Shown here: positions 12,836-63,056 of the stretch, piece by piece
How positions within the stretch are numbered: position 1 is the first letter of the stretch
Layout of the letters: each line of letters begins with the position of its first letter
Assembly (NCBI GenBank): GCA_025602915.1
Contig: JAHLJZ010000077.1
Coordinates: 47,822 to 111,821, forward strand
Length of the DNA stretch: 64,000 bases
Source of the DNA: Paraphysoderma sedebokerense
Taxonomy: Eukaryota; Blastocladiomycota; Physodermatomycetes; Physodermatales; Physodermataceae
Direction of reading: 5' to 3'
Translations under genes and position numbers: made by a program
The notes under the pieces: generated by a model
Told to the model about the DNA's origin: nothing
Database searches by the model: none
The model's input: the letters and a program-made list of their open reading frames with translations, nothing else

Positions 12836-14155
<1,320 letters not shown>

Positions 14156-38871: not shown

Positions 38872-41800
38872 ATGTCTCGTCTCAAATTATTATCAGCATT
38901 GGTACTGCCGTTGTTGGTTTTGATATGCACAGTTGATAACTGGGCAACAGCCCAGAATATACCGTCCCTCACTAGGTTATTGCCTCGAAGTATCCCTGAT
39001 ACTACCGGTTACGTGCTTCTGGAAGGGTCAAACTTCGGAACCAACATAAGTAATATTAATGTCACCTTTACATCGAATAATACCAGCTTCAATCCATGCT
39101 CGTCTTTAGTTTTCGCCTTCCCGGTCGCATATCTAAATTGGTATGTAGATTTCATAAACATTTCTTCATCTCTTATTCGTAGTAATCGGATTTATTTTTT
39201 GCTTTTCCGTGATAAGTTCGTTGAGTATCCCGAATATCTTGGCGAATGAGACGGCATACGACGTTCGCGTTTTAGTTAGGCAGCAATCATCCAATCTGCT
39301 GGTTTTTAATACAGGTGTTCCGAATGCAGCTCCTCAAGTTGCAGATGCAGAATACATACTGTTCAGCACATCATCTATACTTGTCTATCTTCAATCCTGG
39401 GATTTTGACACGAATTCAGAAATGACTTTATTTTTCACAATCACTCTTCCAGCAAACGGATCAATCAATCCTTCGACGAATAACAACAACAGATCTTTAA
39501 GTCTTCCGTCGCGGCAAATACGCTACACAGCTAAATCATATTTTTTTGGAAGAGACTTTTTCCAAATCAAAGGTGAATTAACTGATGGTTCGCAATTTGA
39601 TAAATACGCCAGTCGCGTTACTAATTATCACATATCATGTTAATAGCACTCGACGGATTTAATACTCGTGAGTAGAAACACACTGTTTTAATCAATCTTC
39701 ATCAATATTACTAAAATAGGCGTCAGTTTCTTCCACTGCTACCATCAAAATCTCTGTTCCACTAATTCGAGATCTGCACGCGGAGATAGTACGCCCTATG
39801 ATATTTCCACTTTGTTCCAACAATCGTCCCTGCACGAATGATTCACTAGTCACCATCATAACTCTACCTCGAGGCACCCTTAAACTCTTAAATGGAACCG
39901 ATAATTATGGAATCGACTCTGTCCCGTTCAGTTTCCCAGTTGACGAAGCTATCAGATTTGAATATATTCCGCCAAACGAACTCGACTACATCAAAGCGAG
40001 CATGACATATACCCTTTCGACCGCAGAATTTGACACGACTTTAATGTTTTATGAAGGGCCGTTAGTTTCAAGAGACGTAAGAGTTCGAACCAACGAAAGT
40101 ACAGAAACGCTAATCACTCTTCAATGTAACTTTCCTCTCCGCAATCTACTGATATCCTACTGGTTGCTGCCAACAACGAACAGCTTGAAAGGCAATTTTG
40201 TTCAATTTAACAGCAGTCTAGAATTTCTGAATTCTCAAATGCGGATAAGAAACGGTACTCGGTTTCGGATCAGGGACGACAATGGTCGAATGTATTTCAC
40301 TGCAGATGACAACTATTCTGGGATATTTGAGATGCAATACTTTTGCACTGGTAGAGTAGCAGCTTATTGAAGGTGAACTATTGCGTAATCTAACAATTTC
40401 AATTAGACGGCTTCGGCAGGATTTCACCACCTGCCACACTTACGGTTCTGGTTGATCCTATAATCCGCTGTAACAGCAGAACCACGATAAAAAACTTTGT
40501 CAGTCTAAGCAACCGAGATATAGCACGGGACGGGTATATGAATTATCGGTTCAAACTTAGAGGCGTTTCAAAACTAACTGTTTAAATTCAGAATAACATT
40601 TCGTATCTTGTCGACGCCAGAGGAGGGCTCCTTAGTTCGACCTGCGACAGATAACATTCCGATAAGTGCGGGAGAATCGATAAACGCAACCACATTAAAA
40701 TATATTACAAACATTACTTCGGATAGGTTATTTTCTATGTTCCCAATCTCTGAAAAGCTATCCCCAATGAGAAACTGAACAGTTCCCTTGTTACAGTCTT
40801 CTCGGCGGAGAATTCACTTATGTCGCAGTGAACAACCAATTCAACCTTACCTCCGCCCCATGTACTGTGCGATTTGTCATCTCTTGTGCACCCCTGTATC
40901 TGAATATTTTTCAGCCTTCCATCATTGATTCCTGCATAGAATGCCCTTTTGCTGCTGTTTGTAGGTGGGGTTGCCATTACCTTTTGTATGAAGTTTATAA
41001 GGGAGTCAAGCTAACCGCTGTGTGATAGTTTTAATGGAGAATTTGCACCGTACGCTTCCAAAGGGTAGTTAAGCGTGTTTGGCTTTTTCTGGTTTGCAAT
41101 GGTGAAAATGACATACATTTCGTTCAGATACTGGTACAACCAAGATGAACAGATTTATTTAGCTTGTATTCCGGTATGTAGACTTCACTTCATTTATACG
41201 GCGCAAACTTTTAATCTGGTTACAACTTTTCCGCAGACTTCTGCGTGTCCTGGCGATATCGGTAGAATTTGTGCTGATGGCTATAGGGGAACGCGTATGT
41301 GCCAAGCTTTTCATGACAACAGACTGTACAACCAGTTAAACTACTTTCTTGCAGGGTGTGGCGAATGCGGGGCTAACTACTACAAGTTGAATAATCAGTG
41401 TATACCCTGCAACAGTATTGAACCAGTGTTTATTACTTTGATTGCCGCATGCTTCGTATCCGGCTTTTATTTGTTGTATTTATTTTGGGGTCTGGCAGGA
41501 AAAGCCCAAGGGTAACTCTTGATTTGCTGACAGAGAGCGTACTTAACAGGCTGTCTGACACTTTTTACCAGTCTTGGGATAATTAACATTGCCTGCAACT
41601 TTATTCAAACAACTCTGATACTTCGTAATATTAATATGAATTGGCCCCCGGAAATTCAAGACATCCTCGATTATTTTTCGGTGTTTAATTTCAACCTAGA
41701 GCTCAGTTCGCCTGAATGTTTGGTGCAAGAATACCTCAACTTTAGCTCAAAGATGAAAATGACTCTATTGATTCCTATAGTTCTATTGGGATTTCTCATC

Positions 41801-43199
41801 GCAGCTATGATTCTACGATCGAAGTTTGTAAAACGGGTCATCCAAATAGCGAAGGCTAAATTGTTTCATGGGTTGAAATTTTCAGAGGGTTTGTGGATCC
41901 GAGATCTTCAAGCTTCCTCAAGTATGCCGCGGACAGATGGCAGAGCGAGTGCTATGGAGATTGTGGCACTTTTCAATTCTTCGCTTTCATTAGTCTACAT
42001 TACGGTTGCATCGTATTCATTATCGTAAGTTCTTATATCCATGCCTCCCTTTTGTCCATTTCTGAGACTACAAATCTATAGGTTGTTCGACTGCACAAAA
42101 GAAAGAGACGGTTATTTCTACTTGGGTTAGTTTGCTTTTTTTGAAATGTTTTCACGAAAAATTTTGACTGACATTCTGATGATTGTGATACCTGACCGCA
42201 GATGCGTAAGTGTTAATTTTCCTGCTTGTTGGCAATACGCACCTAGAGAGCTAAATGATTGATTTACAACAATCAAGCGACCCCAGTTTACGATGTTACG
42301 AGGAATGGTGGTACGACGATTTAGATTATGCAGTTGTAGCTATAGCGTAAGTATGTTCAATTGTTAAACTTCATCGGTTGACTATTGACATATCACCTTG
42401 TCAAAGTCTATACGTTATCGGAATTCCTCTCTACTTTGGCATAATACTCTACTTTTCGAGCAACGTTCCCTTTTCTGGACGTTTTTGGGTCAAGTTCAAG
42501 AGATATTGCGCTCTGATTTTCGTCACAGATTCAAGCTACAGAGCAAATGGCAAATGGTTTATGCTTGTCCAAATTTTTCATAAGTTGATGCTTGTGATTG
42601 TTGCCATGTTCTTTTCGCGGTAAGAGTTCAACTCAAACATACAAAGTGGGCGTCATAATAGAAATATTAAAATTTGAAAACAGATACATTTCGTTTCAGA
42701 TAGTCCTTACCGTTTTGACCCTGATGATAACTTTTTTTATGACCTTGAAATACCAGCCTTATACTCATATGAACTTGAATTACTTGGAACTCTATTCTCT
42801 AGGTAGTAATATTGTGATATTGAATTTGGGATTTCTTTTTTATAATAATCAGTGCGTATTCTCGTTCTTAGTCTTACCCCTTATCACGTCTTCTCTGCCT
42901 TGTTATTAATAACAATGAAATGTAATTTTACCTATAGGTTGACACCGACATTGAAGGCTATTGCCATCGACGTTGTACTTGCGGTCATAGCTAGTTTCAT
43001 TCTGGCAGTAGTATTCGCTTCGGCATACGAAATGAAAAACCAATTTCGACGGCTCGTTGCCAAGCAAGTGTCTTCATCGAATCCACAGATTGATAAATCA
43101 GCTGAATCCGATAATTTGACTATGAAGACGGCAAAAATTGGTGACAGAATTCGTAATTTATTCGGCGGTTTTAGCCGGTCGGGCATGAGAACGAGGTAG
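38872..43199 (+). CDS. REC1: IPT/TIG-like ectodomain receptor with multi-pass membrane module
   Basis: Eighteen exons in one frame give 1069 aa: 38872-39140, 39217-39572, 39647-39667, 39727-40350, 40407-40533, 40592-40726, 40797-40964, 41029-41064, 41128-41173, 41237-41294, 41355-41511, 41572-42024, 42082-42125, 42202-42205, 42278-42346, 42407-42619, 42684-42851, 42938-43199. Order: signal peptide (ends ATAQ), IPT/TIG-like domain (GYVLLEGSNFGTNISNINV), cadherin-like beta domain (RYTAKSYFFGRDFFQIK), a second ectodomain (LPRGTLKLLNG to NGRMYFTADDNYSGIFE), then a Cys-rich neck (CIECPFAAVC, ACPGDIGRICADGYRG, CGECGANYYKLNNQCIPC). From residue 630 come about eight membrane segments, with the signature LFDCTKERDGYFYLDADPSL and RCYEEWWY between TM4 and TM5, then VIGIPLYFGIILYFS. 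The basic, Ser-rich C-tail is about 60 residues. Role inferred: surface receptor or channel-like sensor. Confidence 0.87.
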
Positions 43200-44006
43200 A
43201 TTTGAAATCTAATGAATTAGAAGCATGTATCAGAGTGCTACTCCTCCTACGAGCGATAATCTCATGTTCATATATAAGGGAAACTCATTGATATGTATTA
43301 TAAAGTAGATTGCGGAACCTCAGCCATCAGTATTGTCAATACAAGAATACACAACGGAAAAATCTTTTCGCAGCGCATTGAAAACCGTAATTCAAAACAC
43401 GACTCCCCAGCTTCTGATGTCCATTGAGATAGACGACTTTCCATTATTTGACAAACATTGCTCCATCCTGCAGGCACGCATCATTTGTATTGAGTAGAAG
43501 GCATGTTTACTTGATTGATAGCTTAGAATTTTTTCTGTGCTTTTTAACAACCGGAAAACCGGACGAGCCGTTAATTGTGATACTAGGATCTAGAGGTAAT
43601 AAATGCAGCATTCTTCGGATTAAAAATTTTATGTCACGGATTTAAATATGGCGACATTGGCCAACATCTGTGCAATGAATTCGAAGATGTTGACCTGTCT
43701 TGCTAGTCTTTGAGATGGAACCGAACAGTACCGAATAAAAATTTTGGTGATTATCGCTTTGGCTAATTTACGGATGTATTATAAAGATAAATAAATCATA
43801 ATAGCGGTACATAACCTGGAGAAGCCCGAGACTGATTGCTTCCAATTGGTTTTCTAATTTATATTTCGACTACTACATTACCGGCATCTGTTCTCGTCTC
43901 CCACTCGCGTGGACTCGTTTGACTTTTCCTCGCCGTACTTCTGGATTACATGCTTCGGATCCAAACTATCATTATTTCATTACCACGTTAATTCAGACAG
44001 TAGAAT
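43200..44006. promoter_or_regulatory. REC1-LRR2 intergenic region
   Basis: Noncoding AT-rich flank. Nothing assignable beyond general promoter position. Confidence 0.35.
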
Positions 44007-45368
44007 ATGTCATCGAACGAATGTGCCGCGCTTGCTGACTTGCACAACGCCTTAGACCCAGCAGGAGGAATATTGCCAAAATGGTTTATATTTTACAATT
44101 AGGCGAGAGTTAATCTGGCTCAGTTTTTGATTTTTGAATTCAACAATAATTAGGACAACAACTATTCCACCCGGAGGCTTCATCAACGGTAGCTGTTGCG
44201 ACTGGCAATGGGCGATTAACACTCAAGACACTGTCGGTGTTTGGTGCGACTCTACTCGAAACACAGTTACTCACTTGTATGTCCTTAGTTTCACAAGTGC
44301 GCATTTGAATGGCCGCATATATTGACAGATTTCTCTTTTGTTTAGACGATTGGAGGGACTTCGAGACTATGGCTACGGTTTGCAGGGTACTATCCCACCG
44401 GACGCAATCAAAAAATTGACCGGCCTTAGAGCAATGTGGGTACAATGTTTTCGAAAGTGAATTCAAGTTGCTGTGGAAAATATCATGTTTCTAATTTCTT
44501 GATTTTCAGAGAACTAGGGTGGAATCCCATGACCGGCACCATACCACCAGAACTAGGCGGTTTGGCCTCCTTGACCCACATGTACGTTTAACACTTGACA
44601 ATTTCACAAAAGCGAGATACTTTCTAACAAACTACACCTTGCAGCGGCTTGCAATGGAACAGTATTTCTGGTGCCTTACCCTCAGAGGTAGCTGGCTTGA
44701 GAAGCTTGAGATCACTGTATTTAATTCCTTTATGTTATCACATTTGTTCTTTGAATATTGATATCCAGTACTTTCTTACAACTCTTCAAATAGTGAAATT
44801 GACAACAGCAGAATGACTGGACTGCCTAAAAATTTTGGATCATTGAGTGCGCTTTCCTCAACTCATTGTTGGCTAGTCGGCGTCCAAGAGACTTGTCGTC
44901 CAAATCCGTATCCAAGCGCTTGTTCTCGCAACTCCTACAATCTACCGATGAACACTCTTCCTCCTTGCCCTCCATATACGGCGACCACTACTGTCTTCTC
45001 GATTGGCACGGAAACCGCTACAGTTTCTCCCTCTGAATCATTTACGACCCGCTCAATGATGAGTAGCCCGACATCATCAGGGACAATCACTGAAGAGACA
45101 GAGTCGCCAAGTGAGACGCCAGCTACTCCTCGCCAGCAGAGATACACCGTTTTTGGGTCCCTCTTTGGCACAATAGGTACAACAATGATTTCATCTGTCG
45201 AAGTAAGGAGTTGAACTAATAGAAGCTTATAAATCTGCCCGACTTACAGTTGCCCTGATCCTTGCTCTTTCGGTTTTCCGCCGAAGAATCCACCGTCGGT
45301 CGGAGCAGTCTGTTGATCATCTAAAAGTCAATCAGACGTTCGAGGCGAGAAAGAATCTTAGTGGATAA
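44007..45368 (+). CDS. LRR2: leucine-rich-repeat single-pass membrane protein
   Basis: Seven exons (44007-44083, 44154-44276, 44346-44435, 44510-44581, 44645-44716, 44794-45176, 45250-45368) give 311 aa. N-cap: MSSNECAALADLHNALDPAG, then NGSCCDWQWAI and GVWCDSTRNTVTHL. Repeats: GLQGTIPPDAIKKLTGL, MTGTIPPELGGLASLTHM, ISGALPSEVAGLRSLRSL and MTGLPKNFGSLSAL. The C-cap is CWLVGVQETCRPNPYPSACS. A Ser/Thr/Glu stalk precedes the membrane segment (FGSLFGTIVALILALSVF), which is followed by RRRIHRR. The cytoplasmic tail is the longest of the set and ends EARKNLSG. It sits between REC1 and REC2 on the same strand. Exon lengths 1-5 equal those of LRR1. Confidence 0.87.
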
Positions 45369-46090
45369 ACTTCTTGTTGCCAAATTAGTATCCGCGAAGG
45401 TTGCTTTACCGTACATTGTCGCCCGTTCAGATTACCGACACAGGTCGCAGGATGTACATACATCTGGTATGGATGTAACCATTAAATAACAATCACTAGA
45501 TGACAAATGCGGTACTGTGAATAGATGTTAATATCGAACGATCTCTTCATGAATATATCTATTTCGGTATGTGAGAGGGGTTAGGACTTCAGGAGGCGTT
45601 GAAGTTGCTCTACTATTTTGAAATAATCTTAGGAGAAATATATATCTCATTGCTAAATTTCAAATGACCACAACGGATATAAATTTATGTTGATATCGAA
45701 AATGTGAAGTGGAATACGTAACACAGCAATAATGCCGGTGGACTCATTTTTATATATGCTAGTTTCGAACGTCCGCGACTCCGCAACTTCAATTTTCCAG
45801 GGTCCTCTCAGAATTCCAGTAATGTGAAATTAAATGAATGGTCAACACTTAAACTTCAGTGAGACAACAATGGATAAACTAGCTGAAGAGGCAAAAACGC
45901 GTCTCGCACAGTAACAACCTTTCGGATTCTGATGCCACCACCTTTGACAATTGTCGATATATGTAACTATGTTGCGCAAGTTTGAGTACCGTTTGTAACA
46001 TTTCGTAGCATTTTGTGCATTACTTTAATACTCTTCGAGAATATCTGTTGTCATTATCTCTCTTTTACACTGAGGAACAACCTTGCACCA
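45369..46090. promoter_or_regulatory. LRR2-REC2 intergenic region
   Basis: Noncoding, AT-rich, no distinct element recognised. A TTG-initiated frame overlapping the REC2 start is not needed, because the ATG at 46091 heads a good signal peptide. Confidence 0.35.
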
Positions 46091-49000
46091 ATGAGGAAGC
46101 CAAAGCTCCCCTCACCGCTCATGTTAATTGCATTATGCATGATGTTATTCAATGTCTTGCTCAGAAACCCCGGGGTCGCCGCTCAATCAGCACCAGTCCT
46201 CAACAGACTACTCCCTCGATGCATTCCCAGTACGGTAGGCTATGTCCTGCTGGAGGGAAATTATCTTGGAACCAACATGAGCGAAGTAACAGTCACCTTC
46301 TCGTCGGACGGCGACGGCGTCAATGTCGCTCCCTGTACGTCCTTGTTTCTCCCGTTCCCTTCGTACCTAAATTGGTGAGTGCTTTCATTTGGCTGCACTC
46401 TACATCACATGGACTAATGATTTGACTTCATAGCTCATTATCATCGCCGAACGCTCTAAATAATAGCGTTTGGTACAACATATCCGTGTCAGTCGGACAA
46501 AAGGTTTCTAACCGCTTACCATTTCAAACCGGCGTTTCAAATACTGCCCCATACATTCGAGATGCCGAAATCATCGTTATCAATATAGCAATGGTGTACA
46601 TATACTTTCAAACCTGGGAATACGATGAAGTGGCCGAAGCAAAAAAATTCTTGACCATTAAACCACCGCAAAATGGAACCCTTTCACCTTCAGTGCTTTC
46701 TGATTCTACTGGATATAGAGTGTTTTCGCCGGCTTCTGATGGAAGAATGCAGTACTTTCCCGCACCCACCTTTATTGGAAGGGATTCTTTTCAGATTCAA
46801 GGTAACCGTTTCGTAAATTCACAGCATCACTTTTTCTCTTGATGGATTAATGGGTTCCATTATTGCTAATAGCATTAGACGCATTCGATGCTCGTACGTA
46901 TAAGTAGTTGAATCCATTCGGCTTGTAAGAATGCGTATATTGATCTAGTATTTAGCCTCCTTCACAGCTACAATCAACATCTCCATACCGCGAATCCGTA
47001 GTATTCATGCTGAAAAAATCGGCCCCATTCAATTTAACATTTGCTCCAACAATTCCTGTCTTGGCGATAGTTCGGATATAATGATGAAGTCTCTTCCAAG
47101 AGGGAGAGTACGACTCATCAGCGGAACCTCTTCTGTGGAAATTGATTCAGCACCATATGCTGTCGATGTAAATACAGCGACCCGGTTTGAATATATTCCA
47201 CCAGAAGGCGTGGATTACATCAAAACGAGTATGACATATGCCAATATGTCGAGTGACTTTGATACAACGATTCAATTCTATGTGGGCCCTCTGCGTTCAT
47301 ATGACATTCAAGCCCGCACAAATGAAAGCACACGAATTTTGATCACACTCAAATGTGATTTCCCGATAATTAATAATATAAAGCTCACTTACCGTTTGGA
47401 GCCGGAACTTGACGATTCCAAAGGTGTTTTTACTCAGTACAATGACGGCGTCACTATCTTTGACAATGTATCGCCAATTTTAAACGGAACGCGGCTCCGT
47501 TTGAGAGATGAAAATGGTCGAATGTATTTCACCCCCCGGCAGAATTACACAGGGATATTTGAGATAGGATACTCTTGTACTGGTAAGTCTTGAATACAGG
47601 CTCGTTCATATCAATGACAAACCTGAAACCTATATGTTATCAGATCTATACGGGCGTGTTTCACCCACGGCTAAAATTACCATCGCGGTTAAACCGGTCT
47701 TGCAGTGCCGAAATAAAACAGATATCCAAAATGCTTTAACTCTAACGAACAGAAACATTGGTCGCGACAGGTACCATTTTTTGCCTTTTGATGTTCACCG
47801 AGAAATACATCCCTAACCGTCATCTGCAGTATTTCATTCCGATTTCTGTCGACGCCCGATGAAGGAATGTTTCTGCACCCAGGAATGAATAAAACTCCGA
47901 TTATTCAGGGAGATCTGGTGAGCGCAAGCACGGTGCAGTATATCACAAATATTACGGGAGCAAGGTTCATAATGCCCCTTCATCTTTCGGCGTTATTTTT
48001 GTCTCAGAAACTGACAAGTACTATTGCTATAGCATTTTCAGTGGAAATCTCACTTATGCTGCGGTCAACCGGTTTAATGATTCCTCGGAACCTTGCACCG
48101 TTCAATTTGTTATTTCCTGCGCGCCTTTATATCTCAATGTTTTTGATCCGTCCACCGTCAATACATGCATCGAGTGTCCATTTGGAGCGGTGTGCAGGTG
48201 CGTCCAATCAAACTAAAAATTATTCGTGTCCTCCTAAATGTATTTATTAGTTCATCATCAGGTTTAACGGTGACAGACTGCCCCACGCCGCGAAAGGGTA
48301 AGCATGAATTATTGACTTCTCATTTCTTTTTGCACTACTACTACTAACACGTAACGCATGAAGTTATTGGTATAACGAGATTGAAGATATTTACTTAGCG
48401 TGTATTCCGGTGCGTCGAATGTACAGCCTTTGCATGTTATAACAAAGTCTTGACAATTTGCAATCATTGTTAGGCATCAGCTTGCCCTGGCGAAGCAGAC
48501 AAGATTTGTGCTGAGGGATACAAAGGCACACGTACGTACTATGTTGTTCCTGGAGGCAGAGTTTGTTGCAATAAATTTACTTTAATGTTTGAAGGATGTG
48601 GCGAATGCGCAACCAATTTTTACAAATTAAACAACCAATGCGTACCTTGCGGCGAAATCGAAGCTGGTTTTGTTGTTTTAGTTATAGCCTGCCTGGCTTC
48701 CGGTATCTATCTACTCTATATGTTTTGGAATTTGGTGGGAAAAGTTCAAGGGTACGTTAGTCTTGCCTTCTCTCCTCTCCAATATAGCGAGTCAGAGTCA
48801 ACCGACTTAGCTCCTGCTTGATAATTAGGCTCGGTATAGTCAACATCACATGCAACTTCATTCAAACTACATTGATTTTACGTAACATAAACATGAACTG
48901 GCCACCGGAAATTCAAGACATACTCGATTACTTTTCTATCTTTAATTTCAACCTGGAGCTTAGTTCACCGGAATGTTTAGTGCAGGATTATCTTGGATTC

Positions 49001-50523
49001 AGTACCAAAATGAAGTTTGCACTATGCATTCCACTGGTTTTATGCGGATTTCTTATAATCACAATTATTTGTCGAACGGAATTTGTGAATCGAAATGCGC
49101 AAAAACTGAAAGAAAAAATATTCCACACTCTCAACCTTTCGGAGCATTTGTGGATGCGAAAGCTCAAAACCAATTCGAAAACTGTGTCACGAAAGAACCA
49201 AGCCAATAGCGATGCCGACGTCATTATACTGTTTAACGCCTCGTTGTCGTTAGTGTACATCACCGTATCATCCTATTCACTTGCGTAAGTTGCTTATGGT
49301 TCAAGTTTTTGTTTCTCGGCCGCCGATAATTGCTAACGTTCCTGGCATACGCAGATTATTTGATTGTACGAAAGAACGAGATGGATTTTACTATTTGGGT
49401 TTGATTTTACCCTTAACTAGAGATTTTGAATTCCAAAAATTGACCATGAATCAAATGGGTTTCGTTTTTTCAACAGATAGGTTGGTTTACCCATTCTTTC
49501 GCATTAGAGGTCTGATACTAACTTGTGGTTTGATTTAAAATCAGCGACCCTGGCTTACGATGTTATGAGGATTGGTGGTATTCTGATTTGACATATGCAA
49601 TCTTAGCATTGATGTACGGAACCTCCACACTCTTTACTTAGTTTCATTATATTCCTTTTTTAAAGTCTTGTGCGCTTACTGACTTAAAATTTAGATTTTA
49701 CGTCGTCGGGATTCCATGCTACTTCGGCATCATTTTATACTTTTCCCGCAACGATCCCTTTACCGGCCGTTTCTGGATCAGATTAAAAAAGCGTTGTAGC
49801 TTGATCACTCTGAATGATAATAGTTACAAACCAAATCGGAAAGAGTTTACCTTTTTTCAGATTTTTCAAAAATTGGTACTGGTCACAGTTAGCATGTTTT
49901 TCACGCGGTATGATTTACAAGTTGCAAAAGAATTTAAGTCGCATCAAAGATTCTAAACTGATGAACTTTTGAATACAGATATATTTCATTCCAGATAATT
50001 CTTATTGTATACATGTTAATGATTGCGTTTTATGTGACTGCAAAATTTCGACCTTATGTCCATGAATCTCTCAACTACTTGGAACTCTATTCCCTTGGTA
50101 GTAATATCGTGATATTGACGCTCGGATTACTATTCTATAACAATCAGTGCGTAGACCGTTCATACTTAAAGTTACCATTTTCAGCCAATGCTCATGCTCA
50201 CAAATTTTTACTTGTTTGATCTATTCCTTGATCCTTTCAGGTTGACGCCTATATTAAAAGCCGCGGCCATTGATGTTGTTCTGGCCATAATTTTTGGGTT
50301 CATTGTAGCCATGATATTTGTCGCTGGATTTGAATTAAAAATGGAGCTGCAGCGTAACCTATCGATGTGGAAATCTTCGTCTAGTCTGTTACAGGGAACT
50401 GCTCCCGAGGAATTCGCTTCGATACAGAAAACTTCCATGCTGTCTGTTGGGTTGCGGAGCTTTCTGTCGACATCAAAGCAATCCCTTATGGGTTGGCGGA
50501 ATGGCGTGAATAGAAAGAAATAG
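46091..50523 (+). CDS. REC2: IPT/TIG-like ectodomain receptor with multi-pass membrane module
   Basis: Eighteen exons in one frame give 1086 aa: 46091-46374, 46434-46801, 46873-46893, 46956-47582, 47644-47770, 47830-47964, 48033-48197, 48262-48297, 48364-48409, 48474-48531, 48595-48751, 48829-49284, 49355-49398, 49477-49480, 49545-49613, 49695-49907, 49979-50146, 50241-50523. The signal peptide is LMLIALCMMLFNVLL ending VAAQ. The IPT-like domain reads GYVLLEGNYLGTNMSEVTV. Cadherin-like features include FIGRDSFQIQ and NGRMYFTPRQNYTGIFEI. The neck reads CIECPFGAVC and CGECATNFYKLNNQCVPC. The membrane module carries NMNWPPEIQDILDYFSIFNF, LSSPECLVQDY, LFDCTKERDGFYYL-D-S-DPGLRCYEDWWY and FYVVGIPCYFGIILYFS. 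Exons 6, 8-11 and 13-17 have the same lengths as in REC1 and REC3. Some Asn-X-Ser/Thr sites suggest ectodomain glycosylation. Confidence 0.87.
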
Positions 50524-51682
50524 AGGAGCCGGATAAGTAGTACTCGAATTCCGAGACAATAGATCAACATGTTTCAACGTATGAAATGTAATATATGCTG
50601 AAATTATATAGCAAATGACTTAAATTAATGAAATAATGGTATGGTACTGGAGATGAATTAAAATGTATAGCTGCCGGACGACACTTTGATTGCTCATGTT
50701 GACCTCCACTATGAAGAAACTTGCCGCTAGTCAGTGAAGTTCGGCTCACACCACAAAGCAGAACGCCGACAGAAAGACACTGTGAAAGGATAGTAGTGGC
50801 GAATGGTGGTTCTTTGCTAGACACCGTCTTTGCATAATATTAAAGTTCTATAGAATCTACGATCGAGCCCAGAGCTGTGAGAAGATTTCCCTTTTTATGC
50901 CTTCTAACTTAAGCTTGATAAACATATTTGCGGACTGCGGAGTATCGAAGGCGAAGCGGTATCGGAATAGCAATGAATTATGAATAGTTATGCAATTAGT
51001 CCTTCCTGTCTCCCTCATTACATCAGAAGTGTGACCAAGTGTGAGTTGCGACCCCGCACACGCATTGACAAATCCATCACCTATATCGCCAGTCGTAACT
51101 CGAATCAGTCTCGCATCGCGTAATCGCGTAACCGCGTTGCTTGTTGCTAACGTACTTATATATGTCTCTTGCTACTGTCCTACGTTATCCGTACTAATGA
51201 CAGTAAGACATATGAAGCAGTCACTGACGAGATATATGGAGCCCCTTTTATTTGTCAGATATAGCGCCTGCATTCCCGCCAGTTGCCCCTACTATAGTGA
51301 AGCTCCAAATCCTCTTGTCTGAGTCGTTTCAGCTTCACTTATCCTTACCTATCCTGTCATGCTTTTCAGTTGTCACTTGTCAACATAGTTACATGTCGTG
51401 CGGCATGACTTGCATCGCAGAAAGTCAGAGACCTGAGTCTCGACTCTCGACGACAGTCCAGTCGACGCAGTTCGAATTTCGACACCGCTCACAGCCCACA
51501 GGTCAGCTCAAGGTCGACTCCCTGGACTGCAAGTCTCCCATGTTAAGCCGCAGACCATTCAACCGACCCCTCAGTGACCTCACTCCCTTCCAGTTCCGAT
51601 ACGTTTCGTTCCTCTTACAGTTCGATAGTTCTATTTAGTTCGCTTAAGATTCAATTTCCTGTTTAGAAAATAACCATATCAT
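50524..51682. other. REC2-LRR3 intergenic region with a possible LRR exon relic
   Basis: No intact gene. Positions 51039-51054 match 16 bases of LRR1 exon 2 (36938-36953) and read VSCDP in the matching frame, suggesting the remains of a sixth LRR gene. The rest (51060-51640) is GC-richer and shows TCGACT/GTCGAC-type short repeats. Confidence 0.4.
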
Positions 51683-53049
51683 ATGTCATCAGACGAGTGC
51701 GCGGCCCTGGCTGAAATTCACAATGCTTTTAACCCTCGGGGCGGGGTCTTGCCGAGATGGTTTGGATATACTTTCACCCAATTTTGAATCAAAAACGTGG
51801 TTCAATTCACCAATTCATCACAGGACGACGACAGTACCGCCCGGTGGCTTCATTAATGGTACTTGCTGTGATTGGCAATGGCCGGTTGATCCTGGTCATA
51901 CTATCGGGGTTTGGTGTGACTCGACTCGAAGCACGGTTACTTACTTGTAAGCATCACCTTGTACCAAGTTGCATACATACACCGGCTATGAATGAGTATG
52001 GTAATTTTTAGCCTTATATTTTATTTAATCTTACAATTTCTAGGAAATTGCTTCGTATGCCAAATGAGTTTGCCTTGCGAGGGACAATTCCGCCTGACTC
52101 TATCGAGAAGTTGACGGGTCTACTCAGAATGTAAGTACAGACAAGTTATTCGTCTTCAATCATGAATATATATAACATGGTCCTGACGATCCTTTTGCGG
52201 TAAAGAGATTTGGGGGGAAACCCAATGACAGGAACTATGCCGCCACAGATCGGCAAATTATCTTCATTAACTCAAATGTAATGCTCTTTGAATCATCCGT
52301 TATCTTAAATGAGGATATCGCTAACTCTGGTCGCATGAGTAGTGAGATACAGCGTAATAGTATCTCTGGACCCTTACCCTCTGAGGTGGTGTCATTGACT
52401 AACCTGCAAGTACTGTAAGTAGCGCTTTCATTCTATCCACTTTGGAAGCGACATTATTGATGACTTGACTTTTGCTTAGGGCGATTGATAACAGTAAAAT
52501 GACAGGACTACCAAGGAATCTGGGATCTTTGAGTCTGCTTAGAGGAATAGATTGCTGGCTGGAAAATATTCAAGACACTTGCCGTCCTAACCCATACCCA
52601 TCGGCTTGTTCTCGTAATAACGTAAACACTCCTATCAACGCATTACCGCTTTGCTCACCCTACACAGAAACAATCTCCGCGACGGCTCCGCCAACACCGA
52701 CTGATATTCTTCCTACATCCATTCCATTTAGCACTCGTTCACTCACATCGGGCCCAACTGCCGTCGAGACAGGCACAGAGAACACCTCAATACCGGGTAT
52801 AAGTCAAGCATCGCTTACATCGCAGCAGAGGAAATATGTAGCATTCAGCTCTTTGTTGGGAATCATAGGTACTTTGCTTTCTTAGTATAATCCAAAAGTA
52901 AATTCATAACACCCCTGACCCCGCCCGTAGTCACTTTATTGCTCATACTTCTCGTTCTCCGTCGAAGACTACAAAATTGCGCGAATTCTGTACGCAACTT
53001 TGAAGTACAGGTGAAAAAAACAATCATATGTTCACGAGAGGAAAGCTGA
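51683..53049 (+). CDS. LRR3: leucine-rich-repeat single-pass membrane protein
   Basis: Seven exons (51683-51759, 51824-51946, 52044-52130, 52206-52277, 52343-52414, 52480-52868, 52931-53049) give 312 aa. N-cap: MSSDECAALAEIHNAFNPRG, NGTCCDWQWPVDPGHTIGVW and CDSTRSTVTYL. Repeats: ALRGTIPPDSIEKLTGL, MTGTMPPQIGKLSSLTQ, ISGPLPSEVVSLTNLQVL and MTGLPRNLGSLSLL. C-cap: CWLENIQDTCRPNPYPSACS. The stalk is Thr/Pro-rich. The membrane segment VTLLLILLVL is followed by RRRLQ. Exon 3 is 87 nt here, shared with LRR4 and LRR5, and 90 nt in LRR1 and LRR2. This suggests LRR3-5 form one subfamily. Confidence 0.87.
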
Positions 53050-53829
53050 ATGTTGTCGGTTCCTACTCCCATCTCTGCCGAAGAATTGTTTATATCATGC
53101 TCAAATAAATCGCAAGCGGGTTAGAACGTCCGTGTTACTCGGAAATTCCAACACAAGATCTCTTCCAATGAGGAAATTCGTACCAGTTTTGTAAATAGTG
53201 CATAAGATATAATATATATATGTTATCTGTTTCTTTATACCGTATTGCGTATAATAAATATTTGCGCTCAATTATCGCAATTTCAATATATGAAGTCAGT
53301 TATTTTGTCTGTATTTTGCCTTCATGGATTATATGTCCATTCCAATATCAATACCAATATGTAAAACAAAAAGAGTACTCTCAATTCGCATCTGCAATTC
53401 ATCTGTTTTGAAAAGAAAAATTCTCTTCGGAGAGCAAATTTTGTTTTCAGCAGGGTAAAACAGCTTCTTTTACAATGATAGACCTGAATAGGCAATCATA
53501 GGATTGTCCTTTAATTAAGTTAAGTTCTACCGCTTAAATTGCAACCTTGCAACTTGTTAGGGATGGTCAGTCAGTAGCTAGTCCGCTCCGTTGACGCTGT
53601 TGACTCTCTTCAGTCGTCACTTTCCGTGGATCGGTGCTTCCCGTCTCCCGACACGCTATTCCTCGCATTTATTCCACATATTTTCCGATTCAAGTTTTGC
53701 ATTGCTAATTTGCTACACTTTATGCCTTAAACGTTCTGTGTATCTTTAGTCTTCAGCGTTGAACTATTCATTCAATTTAACAAAGTTTTCGCTGCTACAT
53801 TACGTTGTTATTTCGCTTTAAACTCCATT
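53050..53829. promoter_or_regulatory. LRR3-LRR4 intergenic region
   Basis: Noncoding. At 53590-53640 it carries GTTGACGCTGTTGACTC and nearby GTCGTCACTT elements. Comparable GTTGACTC/TGACGC text occurs at 63420-63470, hinting at a shared upstream element. Confidence 0.35.
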
Positions 53830-55187
53830 ATGTCATCAAACGAATGTGCTGCCCTCGCCGAGATTCACAATGCGTTCAACCCAGAGGGGGTTGTCTTGCC
53901 CAAATGGTTTGAATACATAATTCAAAATAATCAGACGACATTGCTTAAGTCTTTCCAAATCGCTCACAGGACGACAACTATACCGCCGGGAGGTTTCGTC
54001 AATGGTAGCTGTTGTGACTGGCAATGGCCAATCAACAGTGACTTCACCTACGGTGTCTCTTGTGACTCATCACGAAGTACAGTCACATACTTGTAAGTAG
54101 CTGTAAGCCTGATATAGCATGAAGTATTCGGCGGCGGATGACTTCGTATACCGATACATGCTTAAATATCCTTCAATCTCTTTAGGCGACTGAACGAACT
54201 TCCCAATGGTTATGCTTTAAGAGGAACTATACCACCCGACGCCATTGCATATTTAACCGGATTAAGAGGATTGTACGTATCAGCTGTCCTTGAAACAATC
54301 TCAGTTCTGGCATAACTTAATAATGATTACTAAATCGGCAGAGAAATCGGCGGGAATCCAATGACAGGAACTATACCGCCACAACTTGGCCAATTGACGT
54401 CATTAACTATTCTGTAAGTTATGCCTATTGATTTTCAAAACCATTGCCACATTTTTAATATGTATTTTGGAACATTTAGCCACATACAGCGTAATAGTAT
54501 ATCTGGTGCCTTGCCTTCCGAGATCGCACTATTGACTAGCTTGAATGTATTGTATGTTGAAAGATTTTTTTTGTCACTTGCGTCATGTGTTGATAACTGT
54601 TAATCGCATATTTTAATACAGTGCGATTGATAACAGCAAAATTACCCGTCTACCCAGAAATTTTGGATTGCTAACTGCTCTTGATGGCATCAATTGCTGG
54701 CTAGAGGGAGTTTATGACACCTGCCGTCCAAACCCTTATCCAGAAGCGTGTCTAGCGAACAACGTAAATACCTACATGAACTCACTCACGCCTTGTCCCC
54801 TCTACACAGTGACGACCAATAGTGTATCACCGACAAATATCGTTTCATACACATCTACTACAATCCAAACGACCTCTTCAATTGATTCATTTACAACTCG
54901 TTCCATAACCGTCGGCCCGACATCTACAGAGACTAGCATACAGAGAATTCAAAATCTAAACCAAAATCAACCTTCGGTAATTACTCGCCAACAGAAATAT
55001 ATCATCTTCAGCTCTTTGTTGGGCGTCATATGTAAGCTGTTTACTGTTCTCATGCCAATACACCTACCAAACCACATTGCTCACCATTCACACTGCAGTC
55101 ACATTATTCATTCTGCTTTCCATTCTCCGACGACGGCTTCAATCACGTGTAAAATTGGCGCAGAAAGTTGACCCCGCTCCGCAGTAA
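53830..55187 (+). CDS. LRR4: leucine-rich-repeat single-pass membrane protein
   Basis: Seven exons (53830-53906, 53970-54092, 54186-54272, 54342-54413, 54480-54551, 54622-55031, 55099-55187) give 309 aa. N-cap: MSSNECAALAEIHNAFNPEG, NGSCCDWQWPINSDFTYGVS and CDSSRSTVTYL. Repeats: ALRGTIPPDAIAYLTGL, MTGTIPPQLGQLTSLTIL, ISGALPSEIALLTSLNVL and ITRLPRNFGLLTAL. C-cap: CWLEGVYDTCRPNPYPEACL. A Ser/Thr stalk, membrane segment (FTLFILLSIL) and RRRLQSR follow. Protein wording in the stalk (DSFTTRSITVGPTSTET) is nearly the same as in LRR5 (ESFTTRSITVGPTSLET), so these neighbours are probably the most recent duplicates. Confidence 0.87.
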
Positions 55188-56491
55188 AACTAATTCTATC
55201 TAGACAACCTGTGATATGGAAATAAACTTCCATTCAGTATTATTTGTATGACCATTAGAAATTTAGATGTAGATTAGGAATTTAATGCTTCATGTCACGT
55301 GCCCAGTATTGTCTCCTTTCTGGAAAGATAGTTTTAGGTCGTAAGAATTTATCTCTTTCTTCAAGTTGTAGTTTTAATGTAAAGCCCACAAAAAAGTAAT
55401 CATCTTAATAATTTACAATATAATTCTCCAAAGAAACATTACTCATTCGCTTGAAGGAACCTGTCACTATTCATTAAGGTATTTTATTTGAAATACATAA
55501 TTAGATTTCTCAGCGTGGAATGACACATGTATCTAAGCTGAATTTAAGAACCAACACCGAGAATATTGCATTATTGTTTAAGTTGTAAATTCCTGAAATA
55601 GAAGTCGCTAGAGACTGACTCATGCTTTCCATTGCAAACAACATGGACTCGCAATGTCTAACGACAACCTGTACAACTGTTATCTATGGGTTTAAAAAAT
55701 TACTATTATAATATAGCGTGTGGACGTCGTTGTGGGTATGATTGAATTAGAAATGAAATGAACTCATTTGTCTCACAATCACGCCAGAATGACTTAAGAG
55801 ATAAATGCAACTTTCTTTCATCATTACATTCTTTCTAAATACTTGTCTGATTCGTAGAAAAATATCAGCTGATCGAGTGTGTTTGCAAGATTTGTCATTT
55901 CTTACTTCCTCCAAATCACTTCAGTTATAGTTAAACTGAAAGAACACGTTTAATGGTAATAGATTTACAGAGTGAACAACGCAAAACTACATAATCGAAA
56001 CTGGCGAATTTTAGGAGCATAATTGAATTAGTTATGAACGAGCTACTAAGGGCATTCGACCGTCCATCAACTACCATGTCCCCTTTCGTTAACATATATA
56101 CATATCCACTGAACTTCAGTATAAGCCTAGGTCAAAGACTCAAAAGATGGCTGTTACTGCCTTGAGGCGACTGTCCAGAGCTAACTGCCAAGTGCCAAAT
56201 GTAGTAACACTGCAATGTCAATTCGGACAACCACGATTCGCGCTTTGCGAGTTGTCCGCGAGACTGCGAGTTTTGCTTGACCGGATAGACTTGATAGATC
56301 GCCTCCCAGCAGCCACCGGCAGTGTCGCGTTTGTCGCCAGCTATTCCAAACTTGCCGACTCGTGTTTTGCGTCTCAACTTCAACACCTTAAAATTTCGGC
56401 GTAGTCTACTAGCGGTCTATTAATTTCTTCAGCTTGGCAAAAATTCTGACCATAAAGTATTTAGCTGGCTCTTTTTTACTAGAACATCCAA
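55188..56491. other. LRR4-LRR5 intergenic region
   Basis: AT-rich noncoding to about 56120. From 56147 to 56404 a GC-richer block has open frames on both strands with no recognisable product, so I treat it as noncoding. Confidence 0.35.
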
Positions 56492-57844
56492 ATGTCGTCA
56501 AAGGAATGTGCTGTCCTAGCCGAAATTCATAATGCTTTAAACCCAGCTGGCGGTGTCTTGCCAAAATGGTTTAAATTCAGTTTCAATTTGTCCCTGCAGA
56601 AAAGCGGGTGCTAAATTTTTCTTGCTCCACAGGACGACCACAGTACCGCCTGGCGGCTTCGTCAATGGCAGTTGCTGTAATTGGCAGTGGACAATCAACT
56701 CTGCATTTACATACGGGGTCTCATGTGACCCAACTCGAAGCACGGTCACACGCTTGTAAGTAATTCCTTAAACTTGGCCACGACGAGATTCACGATTTGC
56801 GAAGCATGTTATGTTGACAAAGATATGACCTGACAAACTCAAACCATCGTTAGACGTTTAGGCGGACTTCCTAATGGTTATGGCTTACGAGGAACTATTC
56901 CACCAGATGCGATAGTACATTTAACAGGGTTGCAAGGGATGTAAGTTCACAAACAGCTATTTTTATCTAAGTAATGGTGATATATATGGTTAACGTGATT
57001 TTTCTGATGGAATGTAAGAGAAATACAGGACAATGATTTAGCCGGCACAATACCCCCCCAACTTGGTGCATTGACATCATTGACCGATATGTTAGCATCA
57101 GCAATTGTTTTTTCAGAGAAAATTAATATAAATCTAAGCTGTTCTTCCTGTCCCATAGCCGTATGCACCGCAATATTTTATCCGGTTCACTGCCTTCAGA
57201 AATTGCAGCTTTGACAAATTTGAGAATATTGTATGTGTTTTATATTCCAAACCAACAGTATTATTTTACAATTTAACATCTCCACTCATTTTGGAAAAGC
57301 GCTATTGACAACAATCGAATCACTGGATTACCCAGAAACTTTGGATCTCTAACTGCTCTTGGGAACAATTGTTGGCTAGAGGATGTCCAAGATACTTGTC
57401 GTCCGAACCCATATCCTTCCGCATGTTTAGCGAACAGTTTAAATACTCCTATGAACACATTGCCGCCTTGTCCTCTGTATACAGAAACAGCAAGCACGGT
57501 CACTTTGACCAGTTCTGTCCTCCAAACAACTACCGCATCCAAAACCCTGTCGTCGTCGGAGTCATTCACCACTCGATCTATTACAGTTGGCCCGACTTCC
57601 TTGGAGACCAACACAGCGACAGCTCATATTCCAAGTCAATCTCAACCGTCGGTTATAACTCGTCAGCAGCGATACATAATTTTCGGCTTTTTGTTAGGAG
57701 TTTTAGGTAAATCGTGGGACTTCCTCCGACCTCCATTCAGTTACTGATATTTGCTTCTTATTCCAAATTACAGTTACGTTATTCCTTATGCTGACAATTC
57801 TCCGCCGACGGCTTAGAGTCCACGCAAAGTCGATACGGCGGTAG
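56492..57844 (+). CDS. LRR5: leucine-rich-repeat single-pass membrane protein
   Basis: Seven exons (56492-56568, 56633-56755, 56854-56940, 57019-57090, 57159-57230, 57300-57706, 57774-57844) give 302 aa. N-cap: MSSKECAVLAEIHNALNPAG, NGSCCNWQWTINSAFTYGVS and CDPTRSTVTRL. Repeats: GLRGTIPPDAIVHLTGLQGM, LAGTIPPQLGALTSLTDM, LSGSLPSEIAALTNLRIL and ITGLPRNFGSLTAL. C-cap: CWLEDVQDTCRPNPYPSACL. The membrane segment VTLFLMLTIL is followed by RRRLRVHAKSIRR, the shortest tail of the five. The first-exon Trp codon is split by intron 1, as in all copies. Confidence 0.87.
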
Positions 57845-58689
57845 TGTGTACACAATAATTTAACCGGACTTTTGAATGACACAGAGCACTTATGGCATAT
57901 CTCTGCCATGTCATGTGTGGCAATATTTGTCAGTACGGTTATCGCTTTTGGTAAAATTCACATACAGCATTAGATTAGGGACTTAGGGCGTTTCTTCTAT
58001 TAGCTCGGGATGGTTAAAAAATCCGAAAAGTGGTACTGTTACTTCTTATATTAGCTTGTAAATTGTTGTTACGTAACCTAATGTGGCAGTCCAACTGATT
58101 TTGGTAGAATTTACTGTATTACACTTTTTGATTGTAGATTATGTGGTATAGTAGTCTGTAGTTAAAAATACAACCAAACCTACACGTTTGAAAGCTTAGA
58201 TAAACTCATAGTTCTACAAGAATACTCTGTGATATTGCAAGTATTCTCGAATATCTTCATTCATAAGTATACAAAATTGTCACTCTTAGCGCGTCTAATG
58301 GAATTCAAGACGGAGCAGGGACGAGGTCACGAGGACAATTGAATGTGAGTAGCGGATGGCGCTGACAGAGTGACAGGGACGTAATGTTTAACCAATGCCT
58401 CCTAAGTGTTCTAGGCAACATGATCACCCGAATATGATGATAGCTATAGAGGAGATTCGAGAGCGATCCGAAAAGTGATGTTTCCGTAGTGTCATTTTCT
58501 GCGATGCGCGATTTGTATCCAGAAAGTGTCAAGCAGCTCAACTCATGCGGTTTTAAGTGGGAGTCAGAACTGGTGACAGAACGCGCGTCCACACTGGAGA
58601 CACGTCCTCTTCCTAAGTTCCTAGGTTTCGTAATTGAGAATTTTCAAATTCTAACTCTGACTTAATGCACATCAAATTTTCAGTGACCA
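57845..58689. promoter_or_regulatory. LRR5-REC3 intergenic region
   Basis: Noncoding, AT-rich in the first half. No assignable element. Confidence 0.35.
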
Positions 58690-61600
58690 ATGTCTAAGAA
58701 TTATCTACAATCTTTGCTATTCTATGCACTTTGCTTCTGTTTGTGCTGGGATGTCCTCTTCAAAAACTCCAGAGTCGCTGCCCAACCTGCCCCAGTTCTT
58801 AACAGCTTATATCCCCGACGTATTCCAAGTACAGTTGGCTACGTCGTCCTTGAAGGGAGCAATTTTGGAACCAACATTAGCAATATAGCAGTCACTTTTT
58901 CATCGACTAGCGGTAATAGCTCACCCTGTTCGTCATTAAACCAGCCCTTCCCGTCATATTTGAATTGGTGAGTAAATTCATTTGTACATATCCATTTGTA
59001 AGCGCCTGCAAGTGACACAATGTTTCATTCTTTAGCTCTCTTTCTTTACCGAACAACCTCAGCAATAGCACGTCGTACAACATATTCATTTCTGTTGGTT
59101 CGCAAAATTCCAATTCACTTCCCTTTCAGACGGGTGCTTTCAACACAGCGCCACTCATTCGAGATGCAGATTTTGTTATGATTAACAAGGCATATATGAC
59201 AATTTACATAAACGCTGTCGACCCAGACGACAATTCAGAACTGAGCCGATTCTTAGCTATCAAGCCACCTGGAAATGGAACAACTGTGCCAGCAATGATT
59301 GCATCCTCCCCTGCTTTCCGGGTTTTCAATACAGATAGGACTATACGATATACGCCAAATGCTAATTTCATCGGTATAGATTCATTTCAAGTACAAGGTG
59401 AAGTCCATTTGACTAGTGCATGAAAATCATCTCATGGTTTGCGACTAACTCACAATCCATATTTGTAGCTTTGGACCAATTCAATGCTAGTGAGTAGAAA
59501 AAAACATTGACTGTTTTAATACGAAAATGACTCACATAAGAACTTCAGCTTCGTTTACAGCTACAATTTCTGTCTCAGTTCCTCGCATACGTACAATTCA
59601 CCCCGGAACTTTAGGCCCAATTACGTTGAACTTATGTCCTGACGATACCTGCGTAGAAGCTGTAAATGCAACAATTAAAGCTATACCTCGCGGTACGCTT
59701 CGGATGATCAAGGGCTCTTCTTCGGTACCGATTGCTTCGACCCCCTACTTCGTTGAAATCGACTCAGCAACTCGGTTTGAATACTCTGCACGCGACAGTG
59801 TCAGATATATAGAAACAAGTCTGACATATAAACTTGCGAATGAGAACTTTGATAACACATTAGTGTTAATCGCTGGGTCTCTATCCGCCAAAAACGTACA
59901 AATCAAGACGAAAGAAGGAACACCAGTTGTGATCACCCTTCAATGCGACGATTTTCCGCTTGAGGCAGTGACATTTGGGTATTCATTGACGTCCAGCCCC
60001 GACAATTCAAAAGGGGATTTTTTTCAGTATAACGGTGATTTTAATTCATCCAACAACGAAATTAGTCGTATCAATGGAACTCGCCTCCGGATTAACGATG
60101 GAAACGGCAGAATGTACTTTAATCCTCGAGAAAATTACACGGGAATTTTTGAGGTGCAATATACTTGCTCCGGTTGGTCAGACATCTTGTTTGATTTTAC
60201 TACAGGTTTGAATTAATGCAAGCATGTAGATCAATACGGTCGAATATCTCCGGCTGCTTCCGTAAAAATTACTGTTACCCCCGTATTGAATTGCAAACGT
60301 AAAACCGATATACAGAGTATTTTAGTTATAGGAGCGAATCGGGATTTCGATCGCGACGGGTAAGTTTCGACAAGATCACAATTCCTCGGCAAAAAAAATC
60401 TCAATGGTGACGATTGACACATTCTGTGCAGAATATTGTTCCGGTTTCTATCAGTTCCCGAGGAAGGTATTTTTGTTCGGCCAGGGTTAAATCGCTCTCC
60501 AATTAGGGCGGGTGATGTTGTCGACGTAACAGCTGTGCAGTATATTACCAATATTACGGGTGGAAGGTTTCTACGATTTTACTGTTTTTGGTTAACCAAT
60601 GACAAAAAGCTGAAATCAGTTTGTAGCATTCTTGGTGGAAATTTTACATATGTCGCCGTCAACCGGTTCAACGACTCATCAGACCCATGCACTGTTCAAT
60701 TTGTGGTCTCTTGCGCACCTCTCTATCTGAATATTTATGATCCATCCACCACGCAAAACTGTGTCGAATGTCCCAGCGGGGCAGTTTGCAGGTTATTATT
60801 CAATTTGTATTATTGTTCTACTTCAACTGGAACCTTGCTAACTTACTTTCATATCAGTTTTAATGGAATCAGGAAACCTTACGCTGCCGCAGGGTATGTG
60901 GAAGCTGTTCCAGTTGTTTGCAGACGCAGACCCTCACATCTCATGCTCCTGTAGTTTTTGGTACAATTCCGAAGAGCAGCTTTTTTTGCCGTGTATTCCA
61001 GTATGACAACAGTTCATTATGATCGACCATTTATATCATTAACGCTGACAAATGTTTCAACCCATTAGAGAACAGCATGTCCCGGTGAGCCAGATCGTAG
61101 CTGCGCTGAAGGGTATCAAGGGACCCGTAAGTGACTCTTTTGTGACAATTGATTGCTGCATTGTGAATTAATACGGATCAAATTCATGTGCAGGATGTGC
61201 TGAATGTGCCACGAATTACTATAAGTTAAATAACCAATGCGTATCCTGCACAGAGACAGAAGTAGAATTCATTCTATTGATTTCCGCATGCATTATTTTT
61301 GGTGCTCTCCTTTGGTATACCTTCTGGAGTTTGGTGGGAAAATCACAAGGGTATAAGATTTTCACTCTATCAGCGATATTCTGCTTTTGCTGGTTCGCGA
61401 GATCTAACAATAAACACTGCAGGCTCGGAATCTTCAACATCACTTGTAACTTCATCCAAACGGCCCTCATTCTTCGAAACATAAAAATGAATTGGCCATC
61501 TGAAATACAAAGCGTTCTCGACTACTTTTCCTTTTTTAATTTTAATTTGGAGCTGAGTTCACCAGAATGTCTGGTAGAAGAATACCTCAACTTCAGCGTT

Positions 61601-63056
61601 AAAATGAAAATGGCCTTATCTATTCCATTGATCCTCATGGGGATCCTCTTCGCTACTATTCTACTCTATTTTATGTTCAGTCTGGTCATACGTCTATTGC
61701 AAAAAAAAGGGTGGATCAGTTCTAATGATACAAATCGTACTCACACAGACATGCCAAAAGATTCAGAATTCAGAGGGAAACGACACATTAGTAGAACATT
61801 TATAATAATATTTAATTCGTCCCTCTCATTGGTATATAATACTGTCGCATCGTATTCATTAGCGTACGTGATTAATTTTATATTTTTAACAAAAACGGGA
61901 CATCTTGTATTGACAAATTCGTCTTCACGTTTAGACTATTCGACTGCACTCAAGAAGGGGACGGATTTTACTATTTAGGTATGTTGCAATGTGATTTAAC
62001 GAGAATTGTGCAAATCACTGACATTGAATTTGTGGAATTCAATAATCACATTTCCAGATAGGTGTGTATTCTAACTCAGTGAAACTTAGCTCGAAACCCT
62101 GAACTCACGGTTTCTACAGTGATCCCAGTTTACGTTGCTATGAGGATTGGTGGTATGCCGATTTAAAATTCGCAATTTCAGGAATAGTGTAAGTGCCGTT
62201 CTCTTATAGTCACAGTTGCAATTTCTCTACGGTGACTGAGCATGTTTTACCTTCAAAAAGTTTCTACGTCCTAGGAATCCCGGTCTATTTTGGTGTAATA
62301 TTGTACTTTTCGCGGCGGGAAGCTTCACCAGGAAGCTTCTGGGGCAGTTTTCAAAACTATTGTAACGTAATAGCCACAAGTGATACAAGTTATAAATCAA
62401 ACCGCACAGGATTTATGCTTTTACAATTTTTCCATAAATTGATGCTGATTTCTATCTCCATGTTCTTCACGCGGTAAGATTTCATTATTTCAGTTAATTC
62501 AGTGACTTGATGGTGTAGGTATGAGACAACTTAACTAACATTATTAAAATTAGATATCTCTCGTTTCAGATTCTTCTTAGTATTTACAGTTTGATGATTA
62601 CCTTTATCATGACATTAAAATATCAACCATATGTCCACGATTCACTAAACTATCTCGAGGTTCATTCTATCGGTAGTAACATCGTGTTATTGACGTCGGG
62701 CTTGCTATTTTACAATGATCAGTGCGTATTCCATCCGCATCGTCACTTCAAAGCACACTTCAATTGTCCGAATTTTCCAAGATTACTAACATATTTGCAT
62801 TATTTATGAATTTAGGTTAACCCCAGCATTGAAAGCCATCGCAATTGATGCTGTGATTGTCGTAATTCTCGGGTTTATTTTAGCCGCAATCTTTGCAGCT
62901 GGATATGAAGTAAAACTAGGATTTAGCCGCCGAATGGCAAAATATAAATCTGTGGACAATCTGTCCCAAAAGGCGCCCAAGGAATCGATCCTTTTAGTAC
63001 AAAAATCATCTGAATATTTATCGCGATTTCGTAATAATTCGAGACAGCGAAAATAA
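58690..63056 (+). CDS. REC3: IPT/TIG-like ectodomain receptor with multi-pass membrane module
   Basis: Eighteen exons in one frame give 1063 aa: 58690-58967, 59036-59397, 59469-59489, 59549-60172, 60230-60359, 60432-60566, 60627-60791, 60858-60893, 60955-61000, 61069-61126, 61194-61350, 61423-61863, 61935-61978, 62058-62061, 62120-62188, 62261-62473, 62554-62721, 62816-63056. The signal peptide ends VAAQ. IPT-like: GYVVLEGSNFGTNISNIAV. Ectodomain: YTPNANFIGIDSFQVQ and NGRMYFNPRENYTGIFEVQY. Neck: CVECPSGAVC, ACPGEPDRSCAEGYQGT and CAECATNYYKLNNQCVSC. Membrane module: KMNWPSEIQSVLDYFSFFNF, LSSPECLVEEY, LFDCTQEGDGFYYL-D-S-DPSLRCYEDWWY and YVLGIPVYFGVILYFSR. The C-tail is short and basic. REC3 follows three consecutive LRR genes. 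Confidence 0.87.

Follow-up and report, generated by a model that had tools for sequence, protein, structure and literature searches.

Our analysis of three tandem paralogs, REC1, REC2 and REC3 (names taken over from an earlier sequence-only reading), confirmed that each of these genes for predicted membrane proteins has a 4-nucleotide (nt) exon 14 candidate at the same place. Its interpretation as a microexon was supported, strongly for REC1 and REC3 and moderately for REC2. The candidate exons, ATGC in REC1 (42202-42205) and ATAG in REC2 (49477-49480) and REC3 (62058-62061), all lie directly between CAG and GT, as the sequence-only reading had described. Positions are those of the window, that is, the whole stretch of 64,000 nt of DNA that was analysed.

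Structure of the REC genes

The 17 introns of each REC gene were placed by reading frame and comparison, and the gene models were then assembled by script. The resulting 18 coding exons lie on the plus strand at 38872-43199 (REC1), 46091-50523 (REC2) and 58690-63056 (REC3), with the gene ends obtained by manual addition of exon and intron lengths. The coding sequences (3210, 3261 and 3192 nt including the stop codon) have no internal stop and encode 1069, 1086 and 1063 residues, and their divisibility by three had been anticipated from the sequence. Eleven of the 18 exons (exons 3, 6, 8-11 and 13-17) have the same length in the three genes. Exon 3 is just 21 nt long in each (39647-39667, 46873-46893 and 59469-59489; coordinates summed by hand). 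A tblastn search gave 88 hits, all inside REC1-3, and detected no further REC copy in the window.

Exon 13 is 44 nt long in every copy (42082-42125 in REC1, 49355-49398 in REC2 and 61935-61978 in REC3) and exon 15 is 69 nt long (42278-42346, 49545-49613 and 62120-62188), in agreement with the earlier reading. Between them, intron 13 has 76 nt in REC1 (42126-42201, GTTAGT...CGCAG), 78 nt in REC2 (49399-49476, GTTTGA...AACAG) and 79 nt in REC3 (61979-62057, GTATGT...TCCAG), and intron 14 has 72 nt in REC1 (42206-42277, GTAAGT...ATCAAG, with a weak acceptor), 64 nt in REC2 (49481-49544) and 58 nt in REC3 (62062-62119). With the 4-nt exon included, the claim of a continuous motif containing D-A or D-S was borne out: the encoded stretch reads YL-D-A/S-DP-S/G-LRCYE, in which the D is invariant in all three proteins, and the conserved block downstream is DPSLRCYE, or DPGLRCYE in REC2.

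Splice-site scores and chance expectation

To estimate the expectation by chance, the gap between exons 13 and 15 was dinucleotide-shuffled 3000 times in each gene and scored with a splice-site model trained only on the 45 other REC introns. A candidate was defined as a frame-restoring exon of 1-58 nt between AG and GT, with introns of 50-100 nt on both sides. Some candidate appeared in 1152, 1468 and 1168 of the 3000 shuffled gaps (REC1, REC2 and REC3, respectively; 38-49%), so that the pattern in any single gene means little. The observed splice-site score was reached by only 0, 7 and 3 of the 3000 shuffles, however. In joint draws, one exon length was shared across the three genes in 13 of 3000, and none of the 3000 also reached the summed score. 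The case for the putative microexon is thus carried by the quality of its splice sites and the agreement among the copies.

Each real gap holds two frame-restoring exon candidates, and the 4-nt one is ahead by 13.5, 10.3 and 9.4 bits in REC1, REC2 and REC3. The two introns of the microexon path together score 21.6, 24.7 and 24.8 bits. Among the 12 sites around the microexons, 11 fall inside the range of the splice sites of 79 other introns; the exception is the acceptor of REC1 intron 14 (ATCAAG), whose score is lower than that of any of the 79 training acceptors.

The lengths point in the same direction. Short GT-AG introns are common in the window. Left undivided, the gap would measure 152, 146 and 141 nt (REC1-3) versus 56-94 nt for the other 45 REC introns; the introns of the neighbouring leucine-rich repeat (LRR)-like genes have 62-98 nt, and one of the 79 other modelled introns exceeds 98 nt. 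Nevertheless, intron 1 of the PP2A gene has 147 nt, showing that single introns as long as the undivided gap exist in the window, and the gap length therefore supports the microexon without being decisive. Note that the branch-point motif YTRAY helps little as evidence: 62 of the 79 other introns contain it, as do all six that flank the microexons, yet so do 48% of the shuffles.

Alternative joins and unaided prediction

Single-intron joins with a GT or GC donor and an AG acceptor that were in frame and free of stops were enumerated (13, 8 and 9 in REC1, REC2 and REC3), and 12 of the 13, all 8 and all 9, respectively, were inspected. The joins with higher scores, up to 12.5 bits in REC1 and 14.1 bits in REC3, would lose most of exon 15, a part conserved among the three proteins. 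The inspected joins that leave DPSLRCYE whole were, in REC1, the use of a GT 4 nt downstream of the normal donor (-0.81 bits) and the near-total loss of exon 13 (-0.63 bits) and, in REC3, the corresponding +4 GT (0.20 bits) and two GC donors (1.32 and -3.55 bits). For REC2, DPGLRCYE stays whole only when intron 13 is retained, with 12.48 bits for the one intron of that structure. Among the enumerated structures, the predicted 4-nt microexon alone is in frame, takes the same form and has sites of ordinary strength in all three genes.

We also used a decoder with terms for splice sites, codons, intron length and average exon length, in which exon size had no lower limit. It was trained on the 79 other introns (45 REC, 30 LRR and 4 PP2A) and on the REC exons except for exons 13-15. 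The decoder returned the 4-nt exon unaided in REC1 and REC3, where the best path with all exons of at least 10 nt was 4.0 and 8.9 bits lower, respectively. In REC2 it chose a 126-nt exon that includes intron 13 (35.8 bits) over the microexon path (29.5 bits).

The case of REC2

This 126-nt exon represents an alternative for REC2, in which intron 13 would be coding and would insert 26 residues (GLILPLTRDFEFQKLTMNQMGFVFST), the 4-nt exon being used in REC1 and REC3 only. The sequence-only reading, which had held that only the 4-nt exon restores the frame and that REC2 has no alternative donor to bypass it, overlooked this retention: REC2 indeed lacks a donor of the kind present in REC1 and REC3, but its intron 13 (78 nt) is stop-free in frame. 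In addition to the preference of the decoder by 6.3 bits, the codon score of this intron is exon-like (mean 0.197 vs 0.179 for coding windows) and was reached by one of 50 stop-free intron frames, which is probably the same stretch. On the other hand, stop-free in-frame retention is possible for 7 of the 51 REC introns and is not rare, and the translated intron is no closer to the other two than shuffles (fraction 0.20). The 26-residue insert would be the sole gap in columns 805-1078 (274 columns) of the alignment of the three proteins. Moreover, the intron opens with GT and closes on a CAG acceptor that is strong (75 of the 79 training acceptors score no higher), and its length resembles that of intron 13 of REC1 and REC3 (76 and 79 nt). 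We therefore regard the coding use of intron 13 as unlikely. REC2 alone would not suggest a microexon; its assignment would depend on the comparison with REC1 and REC3, the intact GT and CAG, and the gap-free columns 805-1078. For REC1, retention of intron 13 would bring a stop at the second codon of the intron.

Proposed mechanism and other alternatives

We propose that exons 13 and 15 are linked through the 4-nt exon in each REC gene and that the exon is used constitutively. The flanking introns (58-79 nt) would each be recognised across themselves, that is, by intron definition, so that the size of the exon would be irrelevant to its recognition. The two introns would be removed in turn, because splice sites separated by four bases are unlikely to be in use at the same time. 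Two of the four bases would complete the codon of the invariant Asp (G|AT), and the other two would open the Ala or Ser codon, which reads GC|C, AG|C or AG|T across the junction. The microexon would serve to keep the reading frame in a conserved part of the protein that precedes the last hydrophobic segments. While the gene structure comes from the sequence and the comparison of copies, the splicing order, intron definition and constitutive inclusion are inferred. This mechanism very probably applies at least to REC1 and REC3; for REC2 taken alone, we consider it likely with somewhat less confidence.

Without the microexon, translation of all three genes would end in exon 15, some 15 codons past the junction, leaving 846 of 1069, 856 of 1086 and 847 of 1063 residues (REC1, REC2 and REC3), so that every REC protein would lose its C-terminal part. 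Such an outcome could also serve a regulated switch, in which inclusion gives the full protein and skipping gives either a truncated one without the last hydrophobic segments or a message destined for decay. A precedent is reported in a fungal switch microexon, that of Trichoderma Xlr2 (PMC11121469). The loss of any exon with a length not divisible by three would shift the frame, however, and we consider a switch improbable compared with constitutive inclusion.

A single longer intron without a 4-nt exon, spliced in REC1 and REC3 from the GT 4 nt downstream of the normal donor, is very improbable. The sequence-only reading had pointed out these donors; they do exist, the frame is kept, and the products (YLGYDP and YLGIDP) have the same residue count as the microexon form. 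But each of these GT dinucleotides is merely positions +5 and +6 of the stronger normal donor (GTTAGT and GTATGT), and REC2 has GA there. They score -0.57 (REC1) and -3.79 (REC3) bits against 7.85 and 8.48 bits for the normal donors, and the paths that use them are 13.5 and 15.4 bits under the microexon path. When one structure is imposed on the three genes, the microexon path scores 90.9 bits versus 46.7 bits for the +4-donor single intron (with GA in REC2). The +4 donor would also encode G-Y and G-I instead of the common D-A and D-S.

A stwintron or a recursive site, by which the gap would be one nested or ratcheted intron with zero bases kept between its halves, is hardly credible: the excerpt on fungal stwintrons describes two short neighbouring introns removed consecutively, much as proposed here, with no exonic base left between them (PMC5639578), and AG adjoins GT in REC2 and REC3 (ATAG|GT) as at a recursive site, but REC1 has GC|GT, and REC must keep four bases, since exon 15 of every copy falls out of frame when none is kept.

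Age of the duplicates and possible origin of the microexon

The REC duplicates are old. The pairwise identities of the REC proteins are 54.8, 51.7 and 57.0%, and about a third of the four-fold sites are identical (78 of 230, 71 of 209 and 78 of 247). The divergence is saturated, and the NG86 method gave no usable dS. These values indicate that the common 4-nt exon structure does not come from recent copying; its position and length are kept in three of three diverged paralogs of one window. Introns 13 and 14 are slightly more alike between copies than shuffles are (each observed identity was reached by 0-7 of 100 shuffles).

We considered whether the 4-nt exon might be the remnant of a longer coding exon, intron 13 having been intronized, with REC2 in the old state and its intron 13 still usable as an optional coding intron. 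In the frame carried from exon 13, intron 13 has 1, 0 and 0 stops in REC1, REC2 and REC3, one in total where shuffles average 6.1 (fraction 0.0032 of 10,000 shuffles; no correction for the 17 introns examined). With 17 introns examined, we regard this deficit as borderline and as a hint of intronization. Intron 17 has no stops in the three genes in a different frame, and the translations of intron 13 from the three genes resemble each other no more than shuffles do. We would give this origin a small chance on the present sequences. If it were true, the REC paralogs would represent the before and after of the birth of a microexon. The set would offer a way to ask how microexons originate, one flanking intron of REC2 being still open in frame.

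Comparison with known microexons

Exon 14 falls within the range of microexons, with no more than 15 nt between AG and GT in all three genes, and all three need it for the frame, although in REC2 the retention of intron 13 likewise restores it. The earlier statement that four nucleotides is near the lower limit known for exons needs softening, as 1-nt exons in Arabidopsis and Fusarium and a 4-nt exon in rice have already been reported. The comparisons below refer to excerpts of the cited papers.

Plant microexons of 1-15 nt are well documented, in ten species with RNA-seq support, a 4-nt one of rice having been checked by RT-PCR (PMC8831610). They are like exon 14 of REC in length, frame-keeping, conservation and being often missed by annotation, and differ in being from plants and backed by RNA-seq, whereas the REC microexon is predicted from sequence. 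In fungi, the excerpt on Fusarium CYP621A reports a 1-nt exon, called by its authors in 2026 the first in a fungal gene (PMC12940212). As in REC, this exon was deduced from mismatched phases, a gap roughly double the normal intron length and conservation across copies, and it keeps the frame within a conserved motif; the CYP621A exon differs in its 1-nt size and in being followed through orthologs of many species and SRA reads, while REC comprises three paralogs read in one window (PMC12940212). The single-nucleotide exon of Arabidopsis APC11, as excerpted, was tested with constructs in protoplasts and is a constitutive frame keeper, for which the authors favour intron definition with one-by-one removal, as we propose for the REC exon of four bases (PMC4674806). 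The fungal microexon of Xlr2 is required for the long protein, a role that the REC exon would share, but according to the excerpt its inclusion depends on glucose (PMC11121469). The P450 genes of Phanerochaete resemble the REC genes in their short introns and very small exons, although the smallest exons given in the excerpt have 6 bp or more, compared with 4 nt in REC (PMC1184071).

Among the matches listed from open-licence PMC papers, no title concerned a microexon in the REC family or in chytrids. Microexons this small are already known, and what the REC genes would add is the preservation of one in three old paralogs. A 4-nt exon that survived an ancient duplication in genes with short introns would be a natural test of intron definition. 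In plants, gene-prediction and read-mapping programs are reported to miss tiny exons often (PMC8831610), and the C-terminal membrane part of the REC proteins is therefore likely to be mis-annotated.

REC proteins and neighbouring genes

The Pfam families Big_9 and Cadherin_5 match all three REC proteins (best E values 6.1e-9 and 1.7e-8), both matches in REC1 being below the curated Pfam cut-off; no Pfam match covers the microexon region in REC1. The proteins have a hydrophobic, signal-peptide-like N-terminus and a cysteine-rich stretch, and seven or eight hydrophobic segments, some overlapping, are listed in their C-terminal part. The aspartate at the predicted microexon (D832, D842 and D833 in REC1, REC2 and REC3) precedes the last five, five and four listed segments, respectively, some of which overlap. 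No match to the PDB was obtained up to an E value of 1, and at gathering scores the window gave no Rfam match. Relatives outside the window, with which the Asp-Ala/Ser residues could be compared, were likewise absent from two scans each of viral contigs and of genome contigs from bacteria and archaea, in which fungal genes would not be expected.

Five LRR-like genes (family assigned by eye) start at 36708, 44007, 51683, 53830 and 56492, each with six introns at matching places and a C-terminal hydrophobic stretch followed by a basic tail. They alternate with the REC genes on the same strand in the order LRR1-REC1, LRR2-REC2 and LRR3-5-REC3, an arrangement suggestive of the duplication of a two-gene cassette. 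The modelled LRR-like proteins start with MSS(N/D/K)EC without an obvious signal peptide, yet end membrane-like, and an upstream exon may be missing from the models. The gene referred to above as PP2A, which we take to encode a PP2A catalytic subunit, is complete, with four introns, at 12836-14155 (end placed by eye). Together with the abundance of short GT-AG introns, this gene marks the window as eukaryotic, and the DNA looks like that of a fungus, perhaps of a chytrid. On the minus strand, a frame at 15829-16254 resembles, by eye, what is presumably a secreted CAP/SCP-domain protein.
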